A stretch of DNA of 64,000 bases from Rugalucina vietnamica (lineage: Eukaryota > Mollusca > Bivalvia > Lucinida > Lucinidae): the NCBI GenBank assembly GCA_964017185.1, contig OZ024876.1, positions 1,548,001 through 1,612,000 of the forward strand, given 5' to 3'. The position numbers and the translations under genes were made by a program. The first letter of the stretch is position 1. Each line of letters opens with the position of its first letter. The notes under the pieces are model-generated. The model was given only the letters and a program-made list of their open reading frames with translations, did no database searches and was not told where the DNA came from. Shown piece after piece: positions 14,231-64,000 of the stretch.

Positions 14231-14460
14231 AAGGAGATCGTGTTTTCTCAAAGGTAGTCAGGCTGAGAAAAAAATTGCAACCTTCCTTTCCCCCGATTAG
14301 TGTCCACAAGCATAACGCAATTACATGTAGGAACTGACTGAGCTAAAAACCAGACAAACAAACAGTCATAGGATTCTTCTATGATGTGACTTTGTCGCCA
14401 GTCATGTCGTGTCCAAGGTCACTTTTGGTCCAATTTTCAATTAATTAAAGAGAAAACGGA

Positions 14461-15858
14461 GCAATGCTTTTCACAGGTAGAACACAAATTATACTACGGA
14501 GCAATGCTTTTCACAGGGAGAACACAAATTACACTACAAAGCAATGCTTTTCACAGGGAGAACACAAATTACACTACAAAGCAATGCTTTTCACAGGGAG
14601 AACACAAATTACACTACAAAGCAATGCTTTTCACAGGGAGAACACAAATTACACTACAAAGCAATGCTTTTCACAGGGAGAACACAAATTACACTACAAA
14701 GCAATGCTTTTCACAGGGAGAACACAAATTATACTACAAAGCAATGCTTTTCACAGGGAGAACACAAATTACACTACAAAGCAATGCTTTTCACAGGGAG
14801 AACACAAATTACACTACGGAGCAATGCTTTTCACAGGGAGAACACAAATTACACTACGGAGCAATGCTTTTCACAGGGAGAACACAAATTACACTACAAA
14901 GCAATGCTTTTCACAGGGAGAACACAAATTACACTGCAAAGCAATGCTTTTCACAGGGAGAACACAAATTACACTACAAAGCAATGCTTTTTACAGGGAG
15001 AACACAAATTACACTACGGAGCAATGCTTTTCACAGGGAGAACACAAATTACACTACGGAGCAATGCTTTTCACAGGGAGAACACAAATTACACTACAAA
15101 GCAATGCTTTTCACAGGGAGAACACAAATTACACTACGGAGCAATGCTTTTCACAGGGAGAACACAAATTACACTACAAAGCAATGCTTTTCACAGGGAG
15201 AACACAAATTACACTACAAAGCAATGCTTTTCACAGGGAGAACACAAATTACACTACAAAGCAATGCTTTTCACAGGGAGAACACAAATTACACTACAAA
15301 GCAATGCTTTTCACAGGGAGAACACAAATTACACTACGGAGCAATGCTTTTCACAGGGAGAACACAAATTACACTACAAAGCAATGCTTTTCACAGGGAG
15401 AACACAAATTACACTACAAAGCAATGCTTTTCACAGGGAGAACACAAATTACACTACGGAGCAATGCTTTTCACAGGGAGAACACAAATTACACTACAAA
15501 GCAATGCTTTTCACAGGGAGAACACAAATTACACTACGGAGCAATGCTTCACAGGGAGAACACAAATTATACTACGGAGCAATGCTTGTCACAGGGAGAA
15601 CACAAATTACACTACGGAGCAATGCTTTTCACAGGGAAAACACAAATTACACTACGGAGCAATGCTTGTCACAAAGAGAACACAAATTACACTACGGAGC
15701 AATGCTTGTCACAGGGAGAACACAAATTACACTACGGAGCAATGCTTGTCACAGGGAAAACACAAATTACACTACGGAGCAATGCTTGTCACAAAGAGAA
15801 CACAAATTACACTACGGAGCAATGCTTTTCACAGGGAGAACACAAATTACACTGTAAT
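14461..15858. repeat. 40-bp minisatellite, 35 units, intronic
   Basis: Units start GCAATGCTTTTCACAGGG and end in ACTACAAA or ACTACGGA. Twenty-seven exact 40-bp units fill 14461-15540, then one 38-bp unit (15541-15578), then seven more. The two unit endings alternate without simple period. The last third is dominated by GGA endings and TTGTCACA variants, so the array has a homogenised part and a diverged 3' part. All three plus-strand frames are open across it because one stop-free 40-bp unit opens every frame. I judge it non-coding. Confidence 0.95.
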
Positions 15859-19824: not shown

Positions 19825-20828
19825 ATAAATGTTTAACGGCAAAACTTCTCCAACAGGGCTATCGCTATCATAAACTTCGAAAAACCTTTTCTAAATTTTA
19901 TCGTAGACACTATGAATTGATTTCCAAATATAATGTTGGGTTAAAGACGCTTTTAAGTGAGGGCCTTTCGGAACCTGAATTTTATGTTGACTTAGTTTAC
20001 AAATTTAAGAAACTTATAGGAATTAATGATTTTTCTTTTCAGTTCAGAAAAATCATAAAACGTTACAGACGTATAGGTTATAACTTGAATGTTATGCGAC
20101 AGTTTGCATGCTTAGTTTTAAACCGAATCATGGTTGATAACTATGCTGCCTTCTTTAATTGCACGCCGGTGGGTCGGGCGTCAGACTCTATGATGGCCCC
20201 GACTTAAAGCTATTCATTTTAGTTGGTTGGGGCCGGAGCTTCTTGTCTGTTGCTTGACCCACCGGGTCCAGCTGGTGTTTTTCTTTTGCTCCGGAGTTAG
20301 TAGGTTATTCGGCGCCCAGGGATCTCCGTCGTCGGGCAGCTTACTCAATCTGTGAGTCCTTGTTTTTGATTCATTAGGATGTTTATCATGATTCATTTGT
20401 TTGTTCTTGATGATTCATTGACTAGTTAGAGATTCACCACGAGGACCGAAGAACTAACTAAATGTTATGAACCACTGCAGACGCTGAGGGCGAGGTTAGG
20501 ATCCTGTAAAACCGGTTTAAGCCCGCCAGTAACTTTGTGTTACTGATCGTTCCAAGGCGATACTTCTGTGGTGGTTCTTTTTGTTTTATGTCTTGGTGTT
20601 TAAAATTTTTTGTGCTGTTGGCGCCTTATGTATGTTTTCATATTTTTAATTAAGTTAAGGTAACTGAGTGGCCACCTATTGGGAAAATAGCTGCTCATTC
20701 GGCTTACGATATGTTTCCTGGTATAAGTACCTGATTGTTAGTTTGGTTTTTTCCCACCTCGGTTTTTGGAGTGGGAATCTCTTTCTGATTGCGCCTTTTC
20801 CTGATCTTTGCCTACTTGTACCATTTTT
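19825..20828 (+). mobile_element. 5'-truncated Naiad-like PLE nested in a family M MITE
   Basis: Starts at ATAAATGTTTAACGGC in the RT C-terminal coding region and ends at the 3' end TACTTGTACCATTTTT. It sits inside the MITE. T-rich bases repeated at both junctions could be a 3-4 bp target duplication. Confidence 0.88.
19828..20207 (+). pseudogene. RT C-terminal fragment of the nested PLE
   Basis: In-frame match to the last roughly 125 residues of the full element (from KCLTAKLLQQGYRYHKLRKT to the terminal GRASDSMMAPT and stop). Open and nearly identical, so the copy is fairly young, but it lacks the catalytic RT motifs and the endonuclease. The SECIS-like stem-loop at the stop codon is also preserved here (about 20182-20249). 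Confidence 0.85.
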
Positions 20829-26562: not shown

Positions 26563-26792
26563 GAGCCGTCTCGTGAGAAAACCAACAATGTGGTTTCCGA
26601 ACAGGTCTGACACAAACCGAACTGTGAAGTCGCAGAAGCGGACAAGAAACTTGAAATATCAGATTTAAGAAGAAGAGGAAGTGTACTGTCCGTGTAGCGA
26701 AAACAAAGGCGCTAATCAGCTTCGCGGTAACCGCGAAGCTGATCTGTGTCTTTGTTTTCGCATATGTAGATTAGTTTCTCATGAGGCGGCTC
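26563..26792 (-). mobile_element. Family E MITE, complete copy
   Basis: GAGCCGTCTCGTGAGAAAAC to CTCATGAGGCGGCTC, reverse orientation, with an intact central palindrome (GCTTCGCGGTAACCGCGAAGC). Confidence 0.88.
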
Positions 26793-27019: not shown

Positions 27020-27234
27020 GAGACGCAACGTGAGAAAACATGTCTTAGGGGCTTCCGACCAGGTCTGACACAAACCGTTCTGCGCAGTTGCAGGTGGATA
27101 GAAGCTAAATTGTTTTGATCTAGGAAAAAGAGGAATTGTACTATCCATGTAGTAGTGAAAACAAAGGCGCTGATCAGCTGTGCAGTTACTGCACAGCTGA
27201 TCTGCGCCTTTGTGGTTTTCTCATGATGCGGCTC
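27020..27234 (-). mobile_element. Family E MITE, complete copy
   Basis: GAGACGCAACGTGAGAAAAC to TTTTCTCATGATGCGGCTC, with palindrome GATCAGCTGTGCAGTTACTGCACAGCTGATC in its centre. Lies just upstream of the full-length PLE. Confidence 0.88.
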
Positions 27235-27480: not shown

Positions 27481-30444
27481 ATGGAAGTTTATATGGAAAT
27501 TTCCTATTCAAAAATGCTTATACTTAATCATTTATGCTCTAAGACTACTATCACTTCATCTGTGAATGGTAGGACATTTTCAGTGGTTAATGATTCTGAT
27601 TTAGACTGAAAATCAATGGATCTTGTATATGTTCTTACTTGAAATACAAGCAATTGTAGGATGCAATATGTTGGACAAACTTGTCGAACTTTGCAAAAAC
27701 GATTTGGTGAGCACTATCGTAGAATCAGAAAGCCCAAAAATAATGATACCTTTCTGTACCAGCATTTTAAGCGCACTGGTCATTCTATCAATGATGTTAA
27801 AGTTCAACCAGTGGAGAAAATCACATATGATGAAAATTCTTCAGTTAGATTCAAAAACATTAAACGATTTGAAACTGAACTTAAATGGATAAAATTACTG
27901 CAAACACCCTTTCCACTGGGATTTAACGACAACATTTATCATGAAGGAAATATTTCCAAAATGCCCGATTTTGATGTACTTACACTTTCGGACTCTCGTA
28001 AACGTAAATCTAGATCTCATGGTATACGGAAAAATGGTAATGACAAACGTAAACGGTGCGCTGCATTGAAGTTGAACATTTCTCTTAATGATTTAGCTGT
28101 TAAACTAAGGATTCACGGTCGACATCCAATGCTGTCGTATCTTAGTTCTCTACCTATTGCTGCATTACGTTCCTTGGACACAGAGGCTAATAGATTTTAC
28201 GATAGAAATCATCAAATGTATGACGCTGCACTGTTAACAAGATGTTATACTCAGCATGCTCTTCGTCCATTTATCGATTCCGAATCTAATCACATTAGAA
28301 GTTTTATTAAAATTCCTTTCAGCAATAAAGGAATTGACTTTATTGATTTACCAAGCATATTCCAGGATAAATCAGTGATACAGTCTATACCTACCTACTT
28401 CCAAAATTCAGAACCTCCTATTATTTGTTACAAATATAACAAACCAATCAGAAATACAATTTTTAATTTCAATAAACTTGTTTCTGATCTTGATATCCAT
28501 GCTAATACTCCTAAGTCTTGAGATTGTAAAGATTCAAAATATGTTTATCAACCCGCTGGACATATTGTTACTGGAAATTTAAAAATAATTTCGGATTCTA
28601 GAATTCGCAAAATTGTTTCTAAAGGTCCGAAATATAGATTCCCTTCCTACATTAATTTCGACAAATGTAGAGAGGAGATTTCATCTGCATTAAATGATTT
28701 CGGTAATCGATGGTGTAAACGAGAAGGTGTTGAGGATAATGCTCTTAAAGAATGGAAAAGAAGTATCTTCACTATCGTGGATAAACGTATTAAGTTTTAT
28801 TCACAAAATACTAATCTTTTACCTCCTAAACCCAAATCGTCATTTAGGCATTTGAAGCAGGGTATCCAAGAATTTCATAGAAAGTATGTCTTGGTTCCGG
28901 CAGATAAAGCCGCAAACAATGTTGTTGTCGTTTGTAGGCTTCACTACGTTAACACCTTAAAACAGGAGCTTGATGGTACCAGGGCTTATCTGGAGACAGA
29001 TACTGATGAGGTGTCTGTAGTTAATGCCCACTTAAACGATTTACCTGTTAAGTTTTCTGTTTGTGTCAATGAAGGCCAAGACAAACTTCCTACGATGTAT
29101 TGGTTACCTAAGCTTCACAAAAGACCATACAAAGCTAGATTTATTGCAAATTCTAGCTCTTGTACTACCACTGAACTTTCTAAATTATTAACTTCCTGTC
29201 TTACTGCTATCAAATCTCATGTTATAAGATACTGTGAGACAGTGTATGAAACTTCAAATAAAAATTGGTTTTGGTCAATTAAAAATTCTGGTGAGGTGCT
29301 CAGTAAATTGAAGTGTAGAGGGTTCCGTGCGACAAGCTTGTCCACATATGATTTTTCTACTCTGTATACAACATTACCACATAATCTAATAAAAGAAAAA
29401 CTTCTGGATTTGATAGAGTGGACCTTCAAAAGGGCATTAAAAAACTATGGTTCACTTTATTTGGCATGTAACGACAGAAAGGCTTTTTTCACTTCCTCTG
29501 ACCAAAGTCGGTATACACTTTGGTCATGTCAGAATGTATGCGATGCCTTATCCTATCTCCTTGATAATATTTATATTAGATTTGGGACCAAGTTATACAG
29601 ACAAATTGTTGGAATTCCGATGGGTACAAATTGCGCACCTCTCGTAGCTGATTTATTTTTATACTGCTACGAAAGAGATTTCATGGATTCTCTTAACCAT
29701 GATAATCAAGCTGATGTTATCGAGGCTTTTAATTCCACATCTAGGTACCTCGATGACCTTTTGAACATTGACAACCCTTATTTTGAAGGTATGGTCAATC
29801 AAATTTATCCACCTGAACTTCAGTTGAACAAAGCCAATATCACAGATACTGAAGCCCCCTTTTTAGATCTACATCTTTCTGTTGCAAATGGATTTGTTTC
29901 TTCTAAAATTTATGATAAGCGCGATGACTTTGATTTTGATATAGTAAATTTTCCTTTTTTGGATGGTGACGTTCCTCGTCGTGCTTCTTATGGTGTATAC
30001 ATTTCGCAACTTATTAGGTTTGCTAGAGTCTGCAATCATGTTACAGACTTCAACGCTCGAAATAAATGTTTAACGGCAAAACTTCTCCAACAGGGCTATA
30101 GGTATCATAAACTTCGAAAAACATTTTCTAAATTTTATCGTAGACACTATGAATTGATTTCCAAATATAATGTTGGGTTAAAGACGCTTTTAAGTGAGGG
30201 CCTTTCGGAACCTGAATTTTATGGTGACTTGGTTTACAAATTTAAGAAACTTAAAGGAATTAATGATTTTTCTTTTCAGTTCAGAAAAATCATAACACGT
30301 TACAGACGTATAGGTTATAACTTAAATGTTATGCGACAGTCTGCATGCTTAGTTTTTAACCCAATCATGGTTGATAACTATGCTGCCTTCTTTAATTGCA
30401 CGCCGGTGGGTCGGGCGTCAGACTCTATGATGGCCCCGACATAA
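27481..30444 (+). CDS. Naiad PLE polyprotein, GIY-YIG + RT, probable selenoprotein
   Basis: One frame of 987 codons, broken only by TGA at codons 43, 54 and 347 and ended by TAA. The protein would copy element RNA into DNA at a nick made by its own nuclease. Codons 48-69 are the GIY-YIG core (LVYVLT, QYVGQT, R69). The zinc-binding CCHH set is codon 54 (TGA), C59, H95 and H101. The RFETELKWIKLL segment is the nuclease's conserved distal part. Codons 347-349 (TGA-D-C) match the family's CxC linker. RT motifs: TYDFSTLYTTLPH (D624), GIPMGTNCAPLVAD (711-724), RYLDDLL (D758, D759). All three TGAs fall where the family has cysteine, so selenocysteine insertion is the likely reading. The N-terminus may be truncated; ATGs at 27496 and 27514 are alternatives. 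Confidence 0.85.
27607..27609 (+). other. In-frame TGA, codon 43 (candidate Sec)
   Basis: Context LD-TGA-KSMDLVY. Related elements commonly read LxCKSxNxxY here, so TGA sits at a cysteine position just before the GIY strand. Confidence 0.65.
27640..27642 (+). other. In-frame TGA, codon 54 (candidate Sec in CCHH)
   Basis: Context YVLT-TGA-NTSNCRMQYVG. It replaces the first cysteine of the CCHH zinc-binding set that is general to PLE endonucleases outside the Chlamys group. Confidence 0.75.
28519..28521 (+). other. In-frame TGA, codon 347 (candidate Sec in CxC)
   Basis: Context NTPKS-TGA-DCKDSKYVY. It replaces the first cysteine of the CxC motif between endonuclease and RT. The same frame is open for 640 further codons. 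Confidence 0.75.
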
Positions 30445-30486
30445 AGCTATTCATTTTAGTTGGTTGGGGCCGGAGCTTCTTGTCTG
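30419..30486 (+). promoter_or_regulatory. Candidate SECIS element overlapping the stop codon
   Basis: Helix I CAGAC (30419-30423) / GTCTG (30482-30486). Internal loop TCT / GCTTCTT. Core ATGA (30427-30430) opposite GGA (30472-30474). Helix II TGGCCCCGAC (30431-30440) pairs with GTTGGGGCCG (30463-30472), allowing G-U pairs. AA of the apical loop at 30443-30444 lies 12 nt after ATGA, the usual SECIS spacing. The stop TAA (30442-30444) lies in the apical loop. The structure recurs in the copy near 20182-20249 and, on the minus strand, near 63610. Confidence 0.65.
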
Positions 30487-31068
30487 TTGCTTGGCCCACC
30501 GGGGTCCAACTGGTGTTTTTCTTTTGCTCCGGAGTTAGTAGGTTATTCGGTGCCCAGGGATCTCCATCGTCGGGCAGCTTACTCAGTCTGTGAGTCCTGG
30601 TTTTTGATTCATCAGGATGTTTATCATGATTTATTTGTTTGTTCTTGATGATTCATTGACTAGTTAGAGATTCACCACGAGGACCAATTAACTAACTAAA
30701 TGTTATGAACCACTGCAGAAGCTGAGGGTGAGGTTATGGCCATGTAAAACCGGTTTAAGCCCGCCAGTAACTTTGTGTTACTGATCGTTCCAAGTCGATA
30801 CTTCTGTGGTGGTTCTTCTTGTTTTATGTCTTGGTGTATAAAAATTTTTTTTGTGCTGTTGGCGCCTTATGTATGTTTACATATTTTTAGTTAAGTTAAG
30901 GTAACTGAGTGGCCACCTATTGGGAAAATAGCTGCTCATTCGGCTTACGATATGTTTCATGGTATAAGTACCTGATTGTTAGTTTGGTTTTTTCCCACCT
31001 CGGTTTTTGGAGTGGGAATCTTTTTCTGATTGCGCCTTTTCCTGATCTTTGCCTACTTGTACCTTTTT
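30445..31068 (+). other. Naiad PLE 3' UTR (reference copy for the fragments)
   Basis: Block order used to recognise the other pieces: GGCCGGAGCTTCTTG, TTTTGCTCCGGAGTTAGTA, GGGATCTCCATCGTCGGGCA, GACTAGTTAGAGATTCACC, CACTGCAGAAGCTGAGGG, AAGCCCGCCAGTAA, GGCGCCTTATG, CCACCTATTGGGAAAATAGC, TTTTTGGAGTGGGAATC, GATCTTTGCCTACTTGTACC. No open frame. Frequent 3'-anchored truncated copies show that reverse transcription starts at this end. Confidence 0.85.
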
Positions 31069-31262
31069 ATACTTTGAACGTTCTTATTTGCGAACTGATT
31101 TTAATTGCCTACAATTTGTATTTTAAGTTATAGAAAGGAAAACAAGTAAAACGTTTTGTATTTTTCTTTTTGAGAATACGACAAAATGACACTGTTTACA
31201 ATTTTAGACTTCCTTTGTTGAGTATTCATTTGGTGTAACTGTTTTATTTGTATTTAATTGTA

Positions 31263-31790
31263 AAAAAGGTACAAGTAGGCAAAGATCAGGAAAAGGCGCA
31301 GTCAGAGAAAGATTCCCACTCCAAAAACCGAGGTGGGAAAAAAACAAACTAACAATCAGGTACTTATACCATAAAACATTTCGTAAGCCGAATGAGCAGC
31401 TATTTTCCCAATAGGTGGCCACTCTGTTACCTTAACTTAACTAAAAATATGAAAACATACATAAGGCGCCAACAGCACAAAATAGTTTAAACACCAAGTC
31501 ATGAAACAAAAAGAACCACCACAGAAGTATCGACTTGGAACGATCAGTAACACAAAGTTACTGGCGGGTTTAAATCGATTTTACATGGCCGTAACCTCAC
31601 CCTCAGCTTCTGCAGTGGTTCATAACATTTAGTTACTTCTTCGGTCATCGTGGTGAATCTCTAACTAGTCAATGAATCATCAAGAACAAATAAATCATGA
31701 TTTAAACATCCTGATGAATCAAATACCAGGACTCACAGATTCAGTAAGCTGCCCGACGATGGAGATCCCTGGGCGCCGAATAACTTACTA
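31263..31790 (-). mobile_element. Inverted PLE 3' UTR 195 bp after the full copy
   Basis: Reverse copy from the 3' end (AAAGGTACAAGTAGGC) back to GCCGAATAACTTACTA. It forms a tail-to-tail pair with the full element, an arrangement known for PLEs. Confidence 0.88.
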
Positions 31791-32091
31791 ACGTTTGGAT
31801 GGTCATTTATGTAATAATGAATGAAACACCCATTAAAATGACTGATCTTAATTCTGCTATTCTCGAAGAAGCTGAATGCAAAAGTATGCGGGTTTCAAGG
31901 GATATTGTAAGGAGTGTAGTATATTATTGCGTTTTAGCACATATATTCTACGTAAAATGTTCACCTTAGCTTAGTTTCAAATCATTGTGTCATTGATAAG
32001 TTATTGTTAAATATGTGCAATTTTTATTACTTAACATGTTCCGAAGAGCTGTTTCACACAAGATCGCACATTGAATGCAATCCTTCAATTT
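31791..32091. other. Non-coding, no recognised feature
   Basis: No supported gene or repeat. Confidence 0.4.
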
Positions 32092-37945: not shown

Positions 37946-39548
37946 GAGGCAAAAGCCTTAACACATAGCCTGGTAGTAAGGTTAATACGATGGCCCAAAT
38001 AGCTCATTTTTTCATTTCCATATGAATTCATAAATCCGAAATCCAAATTCCGAATTCTGAATTCCGAATTCTGAATTCCGAATTCTGCATTTTGAATTTG
38101 TATTTGATTTGCAAACACAACTCGTAAGGGCAACTCATATATCCAGTTATGCCGGGTCAAGAGAAAATGTACCTTTCATCATTTATACAACATGAAAAAA
38201 GCCTGTAACATAATTTGAAATTCTCATGAAGTAGGTCAACACACGGTCATAATGTTAACATATTATTATGGGACCGAGAATACGATTAAACGTGGCAAGT
38301 TTCGTAAGGTCGGCCAAGGAATTCCCAATTCCGAATTCTGAATTCTAAATTCCGAATTCCCAATTCCGAATTCTGAATTCCGAATTCCGATTTCCGAATT
38401 CTGTATTCCGAATTCCGAATTCCGCATTTTGATTTTTTTTATTTGCAAACTATACTCGTAAGGTCAACTCATAGGTCAGCGTCAACACACGGTCATAATG
38501 TTAACATATTATTATGGGACCGAGAATATGATTAAACATGGCAAGTTTCGCTGAAATGGGCCCAGGAATTCCCAATTCCGAATTCCGAATTCTGAATTCC
38601 GAATTCTGAATTCCGAATTCCGAATTCCGCATTTTGAATTTCTTTTTTTGATTTGCAAACTCTACTCGAAAGGGCAATTCATATATCCAATTATGCCGGG
38701 ACAGGAGAGAATGTGCCTTTCACCATTTATACAACATGAAATAAAATACATTTTATCCAAGGCAAGAGAAAATGTGCATTATTCCAAAACACCAAATCAC
38801 AGGAAAATGAACCGATGTCCTTGGCTATACTTCTTGCAGGAAGGCCAATATTTCCTCGTAAGGGAAACTCATATATCCAGTTATGTCGGGTCAAGAGAAA
38901 ATGTGCCTTTCACCATTATACAACATGAGAAAAGCCTGTAACATACTTTGAAATTGTCATAAAGTAGATCAGCATAATGTTAACACATTATTATAGGACC
39001 GAGAATATGATTACACGTGGCAAGTTTCGTTGAAATCGGCCCAAGAATTCTGAATTCCGCACTTTGAATTAATTTTTGATTTGCAAACTCTGCTCGTAAG
39101 GGCAACTCATATATCTAGTTATGCCAGGTCAAGAGAAAATGTGTCTTTCATCATTTATACAACATGAAAGGAAATACATTTTATCCAAGGCAAGAGAAAA
39201 TGTGCATTATTCCAAAACACCAAGTCACAGGAAAATGAACCGATGTCATTGGCTATACTTCTTGCAGGAATGCCAATATTTACTCGTAAGGGCAACTCAT
39301 ATATCAGTTATGCCGGGTCAAGAGAAAATGTGCCTTTCACCATTTATACAACATGAAAAAAGCCTGTAACATAATTTGAAATTCTCATAAAGTAGGTCAG
39401 CGTCATCACACGGTCATAATAATAACATATTGTTATGGGACCGAGAATATGATTAAACGTGGCAAGTTTCGTTGAAATCGGCCCAGGAATTCCGAATTCC
39501 GAATTCCAAATTCCGAACTCTGAATTCCAAATTCCGCATTTTGATTTT

Positions 39549-39582
<34 letters not shown>

Positions 39583-39993
39583 AAACTCGGTCAAGAGAAA
39601 ATGTGCCTTTCACCATTTATACAACATGAAAGGAAATACATTTTATCCAAGGCAAGAGAAAATGTGCATTATTCCAAAACACCAAGTCACAGGAAAATGA
39701 ACCACTGTCATTGCTTCAGTTATGCCGGGTCAAGAGAAAATGTGCCTTTCACTATTTATACAACATGAATAAAGCATGTAACATAATTTGAAATTGTTAT
39801 AAATAAGGTCAGCCTCAACACACGGTCATAATGTTAGCATATTATTATGGGACCGATTTATGATTAAACGTGGCAAGTTTCGTTGAAATCGACCCAGGAA
39901 TTCCGAATTCCGAATTCTGAATTCCGAATTCCCAAGTCTGAATTCCGAATTGCGCATTTTGATTTTTTTTTATTTGCAAACTCTACTCGTAAA

Positions 39994-40366
39994 CACTGGG
40001 TGCTTCCTTCGTCCCGATATAAAAAGGTTTTGTTTGACTTTTACTATAGGTCCCGATAGGATTTGGTTTTGTTTGATTCCGGTATCAGATTTTTTTCTAC
40101 AATTATTCCTAGAATTTGGTCAAAGATTTGATTTGATTCTTATTTATGACGTCATTGAAAGAATTTCAAATCAATATATTTTGCTTTGAAAGCAATTTTA
40201 TAGTAAGATTCCATTTGATTCGTTAAAAAGTGAAGTAATTTAAGCAATTTATGTTATAATCGACTCTATTTTGTGGAGATTTACTGTGTTAAAGAAGTAG
40301 AACAAAATCCGTTACCAAAAAGTCAAACAAAACCTTTTTATATCAGGACCAAGGAAGCACCCAGTG
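39994..40366. mobile_element. CACTGGGTGCTTCCTT element nested in the foldback element
   Basis: TIR CACTGGGTGCTTCCTTCGTC / reverse (CACTGGGTGCTTCCTTGGTC) extends about 45 bp with few mismatches. GTAAA flanks it at 39989-39993 and 40367-40371 and interrupts a module at CTCGTAA/AGGCAAC. No coding sequence. Confidence 0.85.
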
Positions 40367-42067
40367 GTAAAGGCAACTCATATATTAGGTTATGCCGGAT
40401 CAAGAGAAAATGTGCCTTTCACCATTTATACAACATGAAAGGAAATACATTTTATCCAAGGCAAGAGAAAATGTGCATTTTTCCAAAACACCAAGTCACA
40501 TGAAAATGAACCGATGTCATTGGCAATACTTCTTGCAAGAAGGCCAATATTTAGGAAAGGTCTCATGTCCGATGATGACAAGACAAAAGAAAATATAGCA
40601 TCTGTCGAGTAATATTACATGTATACGATTGCACAATACATAAAGTCAAGAAATGACCTTGAACTTCAATACTCAGTTATCTCCATTAGCACATTTACCT
40701 GTCCCCAACTACCAATCATAGGCTGCAATAGTTTACAAAATATCCATTGTTTTAATTTTCTCATAGAAAAGCCTGTAACATAATTTGAAATTGTCATAAA
40801 TATGGTCAGCGTCAACAAACGGTCATAGTGTTAACATATTATTATTGGACCGAGAATATGATTAAACGTGGCAAGTTTCGTTGAAATCGGCCCAGGAATT
40901 CCCAATTCCGAATTCCGAACTCTGAAATCCGAACTCCGAATTCTGAATTCCAAATTCCGAATTCCGAATTCTAAATTCCGAATTCCGAATTCCGCATTTT
41001 GATTTTTTTTTTTATTTGCAAACTCTACTCGTAAGGGCAACTCATATATCCAGTCATGCCGGGTCAATCGAAAATGTGTCTTTCACCATTTATACAACAT
41101 GAAAGGAAATACATTTTATCCAAGGCAAGAGAAAAAGTGCATTATTTCAAAACACCAAGTCACAGGAAAATGAACCGATGTCATTGGCTATACTTTTTGC
41201 AGGAAGGTCAATATTTAGGAAAGGTCTCGTGTCCAATGAGGACAAGTCAAGAGAAAATATACCATCTGCCAAGTGTTATTACATGTATACGATTTCACAA
41301 TACATAAAGTCAAGAAATGACCTTGAACTTCAATACTCACCTATCTCCATTAGCTCATTTACCTGTCCCCAACTACCAATCATAGGCTGCAATAGTTTAT
41401 AAAATATCCATTGTTTTAATTTTCTCATAGAAAAGCCTGTAACGTAATTTGAAATTGTCATAAAGTAGGTCAGCACAGTTATAATGTTAAAATATTATTA
41501 TGGGACCGAGAATATGATTAAACGTGGCAAGTTTCGTTGAAATCGGCCAAGGAATTCCCAATTCCGAATTCCGAATTCTGAATTCCGAATTCTGAATTCT
41601 GAATTTCGAATTTTGAATTCCGAATTCTACTTTTCGAATTCAGTATTCAGAATTTGACAGATTAGATTTTGAAATTTCATTTCTGTTTGAAATACAGAAA
41701 CATCTAAACAGATTTTTATATATCATACGCCGTTCTTAAGGCGCCCTTTTCGCATTTTTGGCTGTAGATTTTTATTTAGATACATCTAATATATTTAATT
41801 AAGCTCTTTTGGATTTCGCCTGAGAGGCTCTGAGCTTTGGACATTTCCTTTTTCGGGGCCTCTTTTCACGCCAGTTTTCGTTCTTTAGTTAGTCAAAGAT
41901 TTCGATGGTGGAGCATTTTATAACCAAACGGTTACATAATCTTAATTTCTTTTCATTAATTATAGCATTTTAATATTGTAACAAATGTCTTGTACAATCC
42001 TCACTGTGATATGTACATAATTTCTAGATGTATTTGTTAACCACTGTCGCTGCATGCTTTATAATGT

Positions 42068-42071
42068 TACA

Positions 42072-42105
<34 letters not shown>
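42068..42105 (+). repeat. (TGTC)n microsatellite
   Basis: Run of TGTC units at the inner boundary of the inverted last module of the foldback element. Confidence 0.92.
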
Positions 42106-42466
42106 GGACATTGGACATGAGAGCTTTCCTAAATATTGGCCTTCCTGCAAGAAGTATAGCCAATGACATCGGTTCATTTTCCTGTGACTTGGTGTTTTGG
42201 AATAATGCACATTTTCTCTTGCCTTGGATAAAATGTATTTCCTTTCATGCTGTATAAATGGTGAAAGGCCATTTTCGATTGACCTGGCATAACTGAATAT
42301 ATGAGTTGCCCTAACGAGTAGAGTTTGCATATCAAAAACAAATTCAAAATGCGGAATTCGGAATTCGGAATTCAGAATTCGGAATTCAGAATTCGGAATT
42401 CAGAATTCGGAATTATGAATTCATATGGAATTGAAAAAATGAGCCATTTGGGCCATCGTAGGTTAA

Positions 42467-45652: not shown

Positions 45653-45913
45653 ATTTTAAAACAACCGAACAACAGGAATTGCTACGTTGAATGAAGACAA
45701 CGACTGTAAATCGATAAATCACGTGTTAAGATTGATATCTTTTCCCCTAGAATCTAAATTAACGCGTTAATATTTAATAATGAATGTAGCCTGCGAATGG
45801 TCGTCAAATTGATTAATGACACATGGCACGTACATAAAGGTAACGTGCAATATTTAAAACAAAAATCAACTTTTCAGTTCTTTTCGAATGTTTAGTAACA
45901 ACAATATATTGAA

Positions 45914-46357
45914 ATGAAATATTCAAAAATGGTAAATATGCTACGAGCTATATACGCATCTGATAAATCATGTGTTCGTGCAAATGGCCGAATAAGCGAT
46001 TATTTTGATAGTTACATGGGGGTCAAGCAAGGGGAGCCACTCTCGCCTCTACTGTTTATCTTTTTCATAGATGATATGGCAAATTCCCTTAAGGACGATA
46101 CGCAAAACTATATTACCCTGAACGAACTCCAGATTTTCCTGCTGGTCTTTGCTGATGACACTGTATTATTTTCTGAGACACCTGAGGGGTTGCAACTATT
46201 ATTAGATAAGCTAAACACCTATTGTGCGAAATGGGGAATTACGGTTAATGTTGATAAGACAGTAACAATGGTTTTTAAACAAGGAAATGGAATTGATACA
46301 CACAAATTTTACTTTGACCGTAAACTTTTAAAAAATGTTAAAAAATTACATACTTAG
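45914..46357 (+). pseudogene. LINE reverse transcriptase fragment
   Basis: A 147-codon open frame with non-LTR RT motifs: GVKQGEPLSPLLF at residues 36-48, and the catalytic FADD box at 79-82, followed by GLQLLLDKLNTYCAKWGI and a KTVTMVF segment. These are RT fingers/palm motifs B to E. The upstream part (endonuclease, motif A) is absent. The frame breaks at about 46345 within an A-rich run, after which the expected YLGV motif continues in another frame (from 46351). Family role: target-primed reverse transcription. As read it is inactive. Confidence 0.85.
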
Positions 46358-46440
46358 GTGTAACATTATCTGCCAATGGTAAATTTCATCAAGCACAAAA
46401 GTCGCTGTCCGAACAGGCTACGAAAGCACTGTTTTTTTTT
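46351..46440 (+). pseudogene. LINE RT segment between two frameshifts
   Basis: The frame beginning YLGVTLSANGKFHQAQKSL matches the part of LINE RTs that follows the FADD region. It is lost again at a ten-T run (46432-46441), beyond which the frame of 46503-47327 takes over. Confidence 0.7.
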
Positions 46441-46502
46441 TCAATACTTTATTTGAAAAGGTTAATTTAGATCTTTCAGAAAAATTAAAACTTTTTGATT
46501 CC

Positions 46503-47327
46503 ATGGTAATGCCTATCCTTATGTACGGCGTGGAAGCGTGGGGCTTCCATAGTGCACCTGACGTAGAACGAGTTTATCTAAAATTTCTTAAGCGTTTGCT
46601 CTCGGTTCGGCCTCAGACAACTAATGCGACTGTTTATGGAGAACTGCGGAGATTTCCCCTGCATATTCTTAGAAAAGAAAGATTATTAAAGTATTGGTTT
46701 AAACTGGTGAACTCGAGGGATACCCTGATCTATAAAGCCTTTAACCATCTGAAAAATGCGAGACAGAATGCTATTGGTTGGGCACTTGAAATTAAAAACC
46801 TACTGAGTTATTTGGGATTTAATTATTTATGGGATAGCGAAACTGTTACCAACGTGCAAATAAACAGAGTCATAGAAACCCTACATGATCAATTCTTACA
46901 AGGTTTTTATGCAGATTTGCGTGAGAAGTCTAAATTAAAAACATATAATCAAATAAAAGTTAATTTTAAGCCTGAAAAATATTTAACATGTGTAAATAAT
47001 ATTAAACATAGAGTCGCTTTGACACGTTTAAGATGTTCCGCCCACAGACTGCTTATTGAGGAAGGAAGGTTTCATAATAGAGATTTAGCACGAAATGATA
47101 GACTATGTAATAAATGTAATATGCGAGCAATTGAAAATGAATATCATTTTGTTATGGTCTGTCCATATTACCGAGAAATAAGAACAGAAATATTACCAAG
47201 ATATTTTTGTGTTTGGCCTACACAGCAAAAATTTGTTAGCTTATTGACATCAACACAACAAAGTATTCTACGTAAACTGGCTAAATATGTGTACCTTGCA
47301 TTTGAATCTAGAAATAATAACGGGTAG
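46503..47327 (+). pseudogene. LINE ORF2 C-terminal part
   Basis: Open for 274 codons from MVMPILMYGVEAWG, the usual thumb-domain landmark after RT (PxLxYGxExWG). The FLKRLLSVRPQTTNATVYGE segment and a C-terminal zinc-knuckle-like CNKC...EYHFVMVC motif follow. The true frame enters upstream (from about 46443, VNLDLSEKLKLFDS) without needing this ATG. It is well preserved, so the copy is young or the frameshifts are sequencing errors. Confidence 0.85.
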
Positions 47328-62356: not shown

Positions 62357-64000
62357 TGGGAAACGGTCAATTCGTCCACCACCAGTGCTCAATGGTTAGA
62401 GAAGTGTATGGGATGGTGAAGGAGATGACCGACGTAAACTGGATCAGTCAGTTCAAGGTAAAACAAATTCCTTATTCTAAATCCATACAAAGTCGGAGCA
62501 TGTCAGGTGATGCGCCTGTGATTGGGGATTTTACAGGAACTCATAATACATGAAAACTTAGTTTTTGTGCTTGAAATACTGGATTATTTGGTTAATGTAC
62601 AGCTGTACAGGTCTAAAAATGCATGTGTTACGTCATGTAAACAATTCAAGTGCGGTGTTAAAATGAAACAACAAGTTTAGAGCACACATTGCTGGTTTAA
62701 GCTATTGTGTGAAAAATAACCTTTGGTTACCAGAAATTGGAACAAAAATTTTACAAGAGTACCAATTGACTGGAGTGCATTTTAATCAATGCGTTTGCAA
62801 TGCTATCATGTTGAAATAAAATAAGAACCGTGATATCACTACTTTGATACATGTTGTTTTCATTGAGGCCGAAATCCCTTTCGGTAATAATGTTGCTAGC
62901 CTTTTTGTTAAATTTTAGTGCATGCTCATGCTACACTGTCGCAAAGATATAGACAATACCTAAAGTCAATGCCTTATAAACGTTTATCAAATAGATTGTA
63001 TCAAATAGATTGACCTTCTCCTTGCCATTACAAGGTACAAGCAGGTAACGATCAGGAAAAGGCGCAGTCAGAAAAAGATTCCTTCTCCAAAAACCGAGGT
63101 GGAAAAAAAACTAAATTAATTAACAATCAGGTACTTATACTATGAAAACATATAGTAAGCCGAATAAGCAGCTATTTCCCTATAGGTGGCCATTTAGTTA
63201 CCTAAACTTAGCTAAAATATGAAAACTACATAAGGCGCAAACAGCACAAAAGTTTAAACACCAAAAATAACACAATAAGAACCACCACAGACGTATCGCA
63301 TTGGAACGATCAGCAATATAAAACTACTGGCGGGCTTAAATCCATTTTACAGGTACCTAACCTCACCCTCAGCTTTTGCAGTGGTTCACAACATCCAGGA
63401 AGTTGTTCTGTCCTCGTGGTGAATCTCTTACTAGTCAATGAATCATCAACTTTAAAGTTAAGAACAAACAAATAAATAATAATAACCACCATGATTTATC
63501 GAAAGCGACGACTTACAGATGGAGTAAGCGCCCGACGTTGGAGATCCATGAGCACCAAATAACTTACTAGCCCCGGAGCAAAAGAAAAACACCTAAGCAA
63601 CAGACAAGAAGCTCCGGCCCCAACCAACTAAAATTAATAGCTATAAGTGGGGACCATCATAGAGTCTGACGCCCGACCCACCGGTGTGCAATTAAAGAAA
63701 GAAGCATAGTCATCAGCTATGATTGGGTTAAAAACTAAGCATGCAGACTGTCGCATAATATATAAGTTATGTCCTAACTGAACTGAAAAGAAAAAATCAT
63801 TCCTTCCTACAAGTTTCTAAAATTTGTAAGCCAAGTCACCATAAAATTCTGGTTGCGAATTAGCCCAACATTAAATTTGAAAATCAATTCATAGTGTCTG
63901 CGATAAAATTTAGAAAATGTTTTCCGATGTTGTTGATACGCCGGAAACCGTCAACTTCACTTACCACTGAGCACCGACGGTGTACAAATTGACCGTTTCC
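62357..64000. mobile_element. Possible TIR element running off the window, holding a PLE
   Basis: GGAAACGGTCAATTCGTCCA at 62359 and, reversed, GGAAACGGTCAATTTGTACA ending at 64000 share about 40 bp with few differences (including GTGCTCARTGGT). They may be the ends of one element whose right limit is outside the window. Because CTCARTGGTTAG is A-box-like, two SINE-type heads in opposite directions is the alternative. Confidence 0.35.
63033..63930 (-). mobile_element. 5'-truncated Naiad-like PLE copy
   Basis: Reversed copy from the 3' end (GGTACAAGCAGGTAACGATC) through the whole 3' UTR and stop region into the RT C-terminal coding part (to GAAAATGTTTTCCGA). The coding part has small deletions. 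The SECIS-like stem-loop near 63610 keeps compensating bases (TGGTCCCCAC / GTTGGGGCCG). Confidence 0.9.

Follow-up and report, generated by a model that had tools for sequence, protein, structure and literature searches.

The question raised by the frame at 27481-30444 on the plus strand of the window (the whole stretch of 64,000 nucleotides analysed here) is whether a frame with exactly three internal stop codons, all of them TGA, and a terminal TAA is the remnant of a dead mobile element or the gene of a protein in which UGA is decoded as an amino acid. An earlier note had claimed TGA at codons 43, 54 and 347, without any other stop or frameshift, and had proposed a Naiad-type selenoprotein; the three codons were found as claimed, at the positions listed below. 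The explanation favoured here, with a probability of about 0.9 for the whole, is that the element belongs to a Naiad-type family of Penelope-like retrotransposons that has amplified recently, and that its protein, in which a GIY-YIG endonuclease precedes a putatively telomerase-like reverse transcriptase (RT), contains three selenocysteines (Sec).

27481-27525, plus strand: flanking DNA outside the element (reported codons 1-15)
27526-30444, plus strand: 5'-truncated Penelope-like ORF, full-length codons 106-1078, ending with TAA
27607-27609, plus strand: UGA1 (codon 43 of the reported frame, 133 in full-length copies), at a Cys position ahead of the GIY strand
27622-27897, plus strand: GIY-YIG endonuclease domain preceding the RT (Pfam PF01541, 27.5 bits, E 3.9e-6)
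27640-27642, plus strand: UGA2, reported codon 54, full-length codon 144, Cys position directly after the GIY strand
28519-28521, plus strand: UGA3, reported codon 347, full-length codon 437, first position of the UxC/CxC motif
29614-29757, plus strand: IPMGTNCAP (from 29614) and YLDD (29746-29757), taken as core motifs of the RT and read by eye in the translation
30445-31068, plus strand: 3' untranslated tail of the element, common to other window copies and a tandem copy

TGA codons in the copies of the family

The reported frame of 2.96 kb stands from 27526 onwards as the ORF of the element, while its first 15 codons belong to the flank. A search of the 1.09-Gb, 47-contig assembly was performed, in which 40 copies were scored of 4229 candidates and the loci were numbered with the prefix L. 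The 39 other copies among these best 40 (window copy included) align only from query base 46 (in one case 48), which places a 5' truncation of the window copy at about 27526; this copy is therefore probably not autonomous itself. Full-length copies start with MTITK and comprise 1077 codons, about 105 more than the window copy, and contain a Cys-rich stretch, KCNAKKCNCC, directly upstream of the truncation point. Several copies lie head to tail about 4.2 kb apart (the repeat was checked in L016), and Penelope elements are described as occurring in tandem in two papers (PMC11167929, PMC3846280).

The earlier note had reasoned that decay would leave mixed stops at random positions. Of the best 40 of 4229 candidates, counting the window copy, 35 are open as far as the shared TAA and have no internal stops other than these TGAs; the five exceptions are frameshifted (L003, L019, L033) or carry a TAG (L010) or a TAA (L024). 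The sister copies thus have TGA, with few exceptions, and not Cys codons or mixed stops. In a base-by-base comparison, restricted to ungapped matches from base 46, codons 43, 54 and 347 are each TGA in 36/36 copies; the gapped L003, L019 and L033 were excluded, as was L026, which starts at base 48 and has all three TGAs too. It should be noted that the compared copies are about 99% identical, with 185 variants over 2919 sites, so that only about 0.6 variants are expected at the nine UGA bases and the 36/36 count alone is not significant. The sharing of the TGAs among these copies is partly common descent, and the weight of the case lies in the constraint on both sides of the UGAs, the older copies, the alignment with Cys and the SECIS element.

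The same observation is the starting point of the first rival explanation, a dead family whose single master copy had acquired three nonsense mutations and was then spread in trans by another, intact element. The young, 99% identical copies share their TGAs, as this scenario would have it, and hitch-hiking needs no translation. However, no copy free of TGA appeared among the best N-terminal matches. With a query carrying Cys at both N-terminal UGAs, and thus expected to favour Cys copies, 146 of the best 150 of 1199 candidates have two TGAs (window copy included) and four have one; none of these 150 is without TGA, and none has TAA or TAG. For codon 347, the query was taken from L096, a Cys-bearing family 36-40% identical, and the best 150 of 1949 candidates were tallied. 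Exactly one TGA around codon 347 was present in 142 matches, two TGAs in four and TGA plus TAA in one, and three matches, including the query itself, lack TGA. The other two have TGT (L103) and TGG (L104) at codon 347 and do not cover codons 43 and 54; L103, the one copy with TGT, is without the N-terminus.

Older copies extend the pattern beyond the young ones. L091 is frameshifted and only 91% identical at the DNA level, and still has all three TGAs, and thus the TGAs predate its split from the young copies. Some older copies have lost TGAs (L066 has TAA at codon 43; L067 has TGG at 43 and TAA at 54), as is expected of decay after insertion. In 33 aligned loci, codon 43 is TGA in 19, TAA in one and TGG in one; codon 54 is TGA in 20 and TAA in one; and codon 347 is TGA in eight, TGT in one and TGG in one. 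Six of the 33 gave no site (L116, L117, L119, L120, L122, and L114 with a score of 110, below the threshold of 150). A TTA in L064 came from an alignment of score 41 that was judged non-homologous, and it was not counted. A search with an RT pattern with changed codons (10 copies, 20 small stretches) covered a UGA site only in L061, which has TGA at codon 347, and in 20 sampled N-terminal stretches the region was present only in L076, which is part of copy L091.

Constraint and cysteine equivalence at the UGA sites

The earlier note had suggested looking for selection downstream of the UGAs, and purifying selection was found there, with pN/pS of about 0.3 in 32 copies. The sample consists of the full-length copies among 35 ungapped copies other than the window copy; three lack MTITK at the expected place. 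These 32 copies contain 180 variants, with pN/pS of 0.34 overall and 0.16 for variants present in at least two copies. Between UGA1 and UGA3 the ratio is 0.31 (25 S, 22 N, p 7.6e-5), and after UGA3 it is 0.30 (59 S, 49 N, p 4.8e-10). Before UGA1, constraint is not significant in the same 32 copies (9 S, 16 N, pN/pS 0.69, p 0.25). A protein ending at UGA1 would predict the reverse pattern, and purifying selection on both sides of UGA3 speaks against a family dead since its master copy.

Another alternative is that the frame is translated by reinitiation as two or three proteins, with endonuclease and RT apart, and the stretches between the stops are long (292 and 640 codons). However, L002 has no Met between UGA3 and codon 629, which lies within the RT; nearly 200 codons would thus be left untranslated, yet codons 438-1077 are constrained as a whole. 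Reinitiation was thus rejected, and it is the least likely of all the alternatives considered.

Each of the three stops aligns with a Cys of another Penelope-like family of this genome. One family per site was used for comparison: L125, a Penelope-like family of the same genome in which the RT is followed by GIY-YIG, for UGA1 and UGA2, and L096 for UGA3. The window element has LDUKSMDLVYVLTUNTSNCRMQYVGQT opposite MDCSVKNVVYMIQCRGCDEIYIGET in L125, so that both U of the window element match Cys of L125, with the same ten-residue spacing and with the codons TGT and TGC in L125. L096 reads TPVCSCNSSKFCYQPVGHVITGDL where the window element reads TPKSUDCKDSKYVYQPAGHIVTGNL.

The alignments were repeated with U replaced by a neutral letter, which scores equally against everything, in 24 scoring settings. 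Codon 43, which had been claimed to be a Cys position before the GIY strand, was placed on the Cys (TGT) of L125 in 24/24 settings, in two of them tied with V. Codon 54, likewise assigned to a Cys position, fell on the Cys (TGC) of L125 in 22/24 (12 on Cys alone, 10 tied) and on a gap alone in two. Codon 347, described as the first Cys of a CxC motif, fell on the Cys (TGC) of L096 in 22/24 and on F in the remaining two. With standard X penalties the result is weaker: UGA1 was placed on Cys in 8/9 settings and UGA3 in 4/9, and UGA2 was placed on a gap in 8/9. The Cys-rich stretch and the Cys residues around the GIY strand also align with L125; Naiad endonucleases carry Cys/His residues of the CCHH type.

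The nature of the stops adds to the evidence against a dead family. The weighted mutational opportunity is 253 for TAA, 171 for TGA and 172 for TAG, and thus the probability that three random stops would all be TGA is about 0.02. A single type of stop, each at a Cys position and accompanied by a SECIS element, is not what independent nonsense mutations would be expected to leave, and the scenario of a dead master copy was rejected as very improbable.

A SECIS element across the stop codon

The first reading of the locus had not mentioned a SECIS element, and one was found at the end of the ORF. Its features, and those of further pieces of the family in the window, are as follows:

30405-30500, plus strand: extended SECIS hairpin of 96 bases (Rfam SECIS_1, RF00031, match at 30419-30486)
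31263-31792, minus strand: a second tail fragment of the family, in inverted orientation and separated from the first tail by 194 bases (inverted repeats I1-I3, 91-97%)
19825-20827, plus strand: a further 3' fragment of the family, which carries a separate SECIS (20182-20249, 39.0 bits)
63032-63939, minus strand: a 3' fragment that has diverged further, with identities of about 80% for the DNA and 67% for the amino acids of the last 79 codons

The match at 30419-30486 scores 37.4 bits against a gathering cut-off of 35, and together with the match in the other family copy it represents the only Rfam matches of any family at gathering score in the window. SECIS elements above the gathering score are also present in L016 (once) and L002 (twice). 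The hairpin of 96 bases has a folding energy of -51.2 kcal/mol (z -6.2), and 0/200 shuffled sequences were as stable. The AUGA, AA and GA motifs are present in the SECIS alignment, with AUGA at 30427-30430. Covariation gave no additional information: none of the pairs had changes in both partners among the 17 rows, and the result was no better than that for shuffles. As an observation on the surrounding sequence, the two family tails face each other at 30534-31792 and form a long inverted repeat of 91-97% identity.

The UAA stop codon (30442-30444) is unpaired and shares its bulge with the AA motif. The element is therefore not wholly in the 3' UTR, but straddles the stop codon and is half coding: its 5' arm encodes the last residues of the protein and its 3' arm is untranslated. 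The usual place of SECIS elements is the 3' UTR, which is not treated here as defining, and SECIS elements in coding regions have reportedly been found to function. This overlap with the end of the ORF, noted for the match at 20182-20249 as well, is what the analysis chiefly adds to the first reading. The hairpin would be carried by the transcript of the element. Against its function it may be said that a position partly within the ORF is unusual and that terminating ribosomes could melt the hairpin.

The genome also encodes parts of the decoding machinery. Two tRNA-Sec genes score over the cut-off, both with the anticodon TCA, and the genome search gave 22 further matches below it. SepSecS was not detected in the genome with the model TIGR03531; such a search can overlook a spliced gene, and this negative result is taken to reflect an exon problem.

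These findings bear on a further alternative, namely a selenium-free read-through of UGA in which a near-cognate or suppressor tRNA inserts Trp, Arg or Cys. Such read-through would likewise need only UGA and would be indistinguishable from Sec insertion by the DNA alone. However, it would require neither the SECIS element nor the tRNA-Sec genes that are present, and the comparison families have Cys at these sites instead of Trp or Arg. The read-through motif CTA follows none of the three UGAs, which are followed by AAA, AAT and GAT. Generic read-through was therefore rejected as well, and its probability is as small as that of the dead family.

The selenoprotein reading is thus supported by TGA in the sister copies, purifying selection, the alignment with Cys, the SECIS element and the tRNA-Sec genes. 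According to this reading, ribosomes would insert Sec at UGA codons 133, 144 and 437 using the host tRNA-Sec, directed by the SECIS element at the end of the ORF, and would terminate at the UAA within the SECIS element itself. The Sec residues would replace three Cys, in the endonuclease region and in the CxC motif before the RT, and, standing in for Cys, they would probably act as metal or redox ligands. Since the protein that mediates transposition would need Sec three times, the spread of the element should depend on the selenium of the host.

The location of the stop codon within the SECIS element might have a regulatory function. A ribosome that has decoded the three UGAs and terminates at the UAA would melt the SECIS element and thereby switch off Sec decoding behind it, so that the element would limit its own full-length RT and tie its copy number to the selenium supply; this proposal is speculative and is considered unlikely, albeit less so than any of the rejected alternatives. 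The hairpin in any case poses the question how termination and Sec decoding can coexist on one structure. The locus is a clear example of a mobile element whose transposition protein appears to require three residues of the 21st amino acid, and the presence of young, near-identical copies and of UGA-free Penelope-like families in one genome offers a natural comparison.

Classification and neighbouring sequences

The order of domains, with GIY-YIG N-terminal to the RT, marks Naiad elements, and GIY-YIG and then RT were encountered in this order in one frame. The PF01541 match (cut-off 22.6) was obtained with UGA read as Cys. IPMGTNCAP and YLDD are taken to be RT motifs; Pfam RVT_1 is only weak on the RT (E 0.18), and stretches of it are 31-58% identical to L092 and L096, while L092-L094 yielded only fragments. 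No convincing relative was found among solved structures, and none in the viral or prokaryote contigs scanned. A hammerhead ribozyme, which occurs near the repeat in some Penelope-like families and is not known to be required, gave no Rfam match in L016 and L002 at E up to 0.5.

Naiad elements, which reportedly include selenoproteins in clams and spiders, share the N-terminal GIY-YIG domain and in-frame UGA at Cys positions with the window element. The element is therefore a well-supported new example of a kind of selenium-using element that has already been described; among the titles listed in literature searches none concerned selenoprotein retroelements. Eukaryotic selenoprotein genes with a SECIS element (RF00031) are alike in having UGA at Cys positions, a SECIS element and a genomic tRNA-Sec; unlike them, the window case is a mobile element with a SECIS element partly in the coding region.

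According to PMC11167929 and PMC3846280, the Penelope/Poseidon and Neptune elements resemble the window element in having RT and GIY-YIG in one ORF and in occurring as tandem copies, but their endonuclease is C-terminal, as the former states for the Penelope/Poseidon clade, whereas in the window element the endonuclease comes first and UGA codons are present. L125 has the C-terminal GIY-YIG order of Penelope/Poseidon and a Cys-rich linker, with Cys codons instead of UGA. Among the 150 PF01541 matches listed, which include the other GIY-YIG families L123-L125, 148 are without an internal stop; of the two stop-bearing matches, one has TGA plus TAA and one has TAG. At G000:C15:425918-437860, four PF01541 matches are spaced at 3,893 bases, and three of the four lie in open frames of 964 codons.

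Several other features were observed in the window. The microRNA matches of Rfam near 27160 and 30978 score under the cut-offs of their families; they are palindromic stretches and were discarded. Near-perfect palindromes at 26697-26761 and 27161-27213, MITE-like by eye, lie in repeated sequence with further relatives in the window, and frames at 45899-47327 resemble, again by eye, the remnant of a LINE-type RT. The GAATTCC heptamer occurs in scattered arrays at 38024-42422, and a tandem repeat with a 40-base unit, present about 35 times at 14460-15853, is open in three frames over 458-490 codons.
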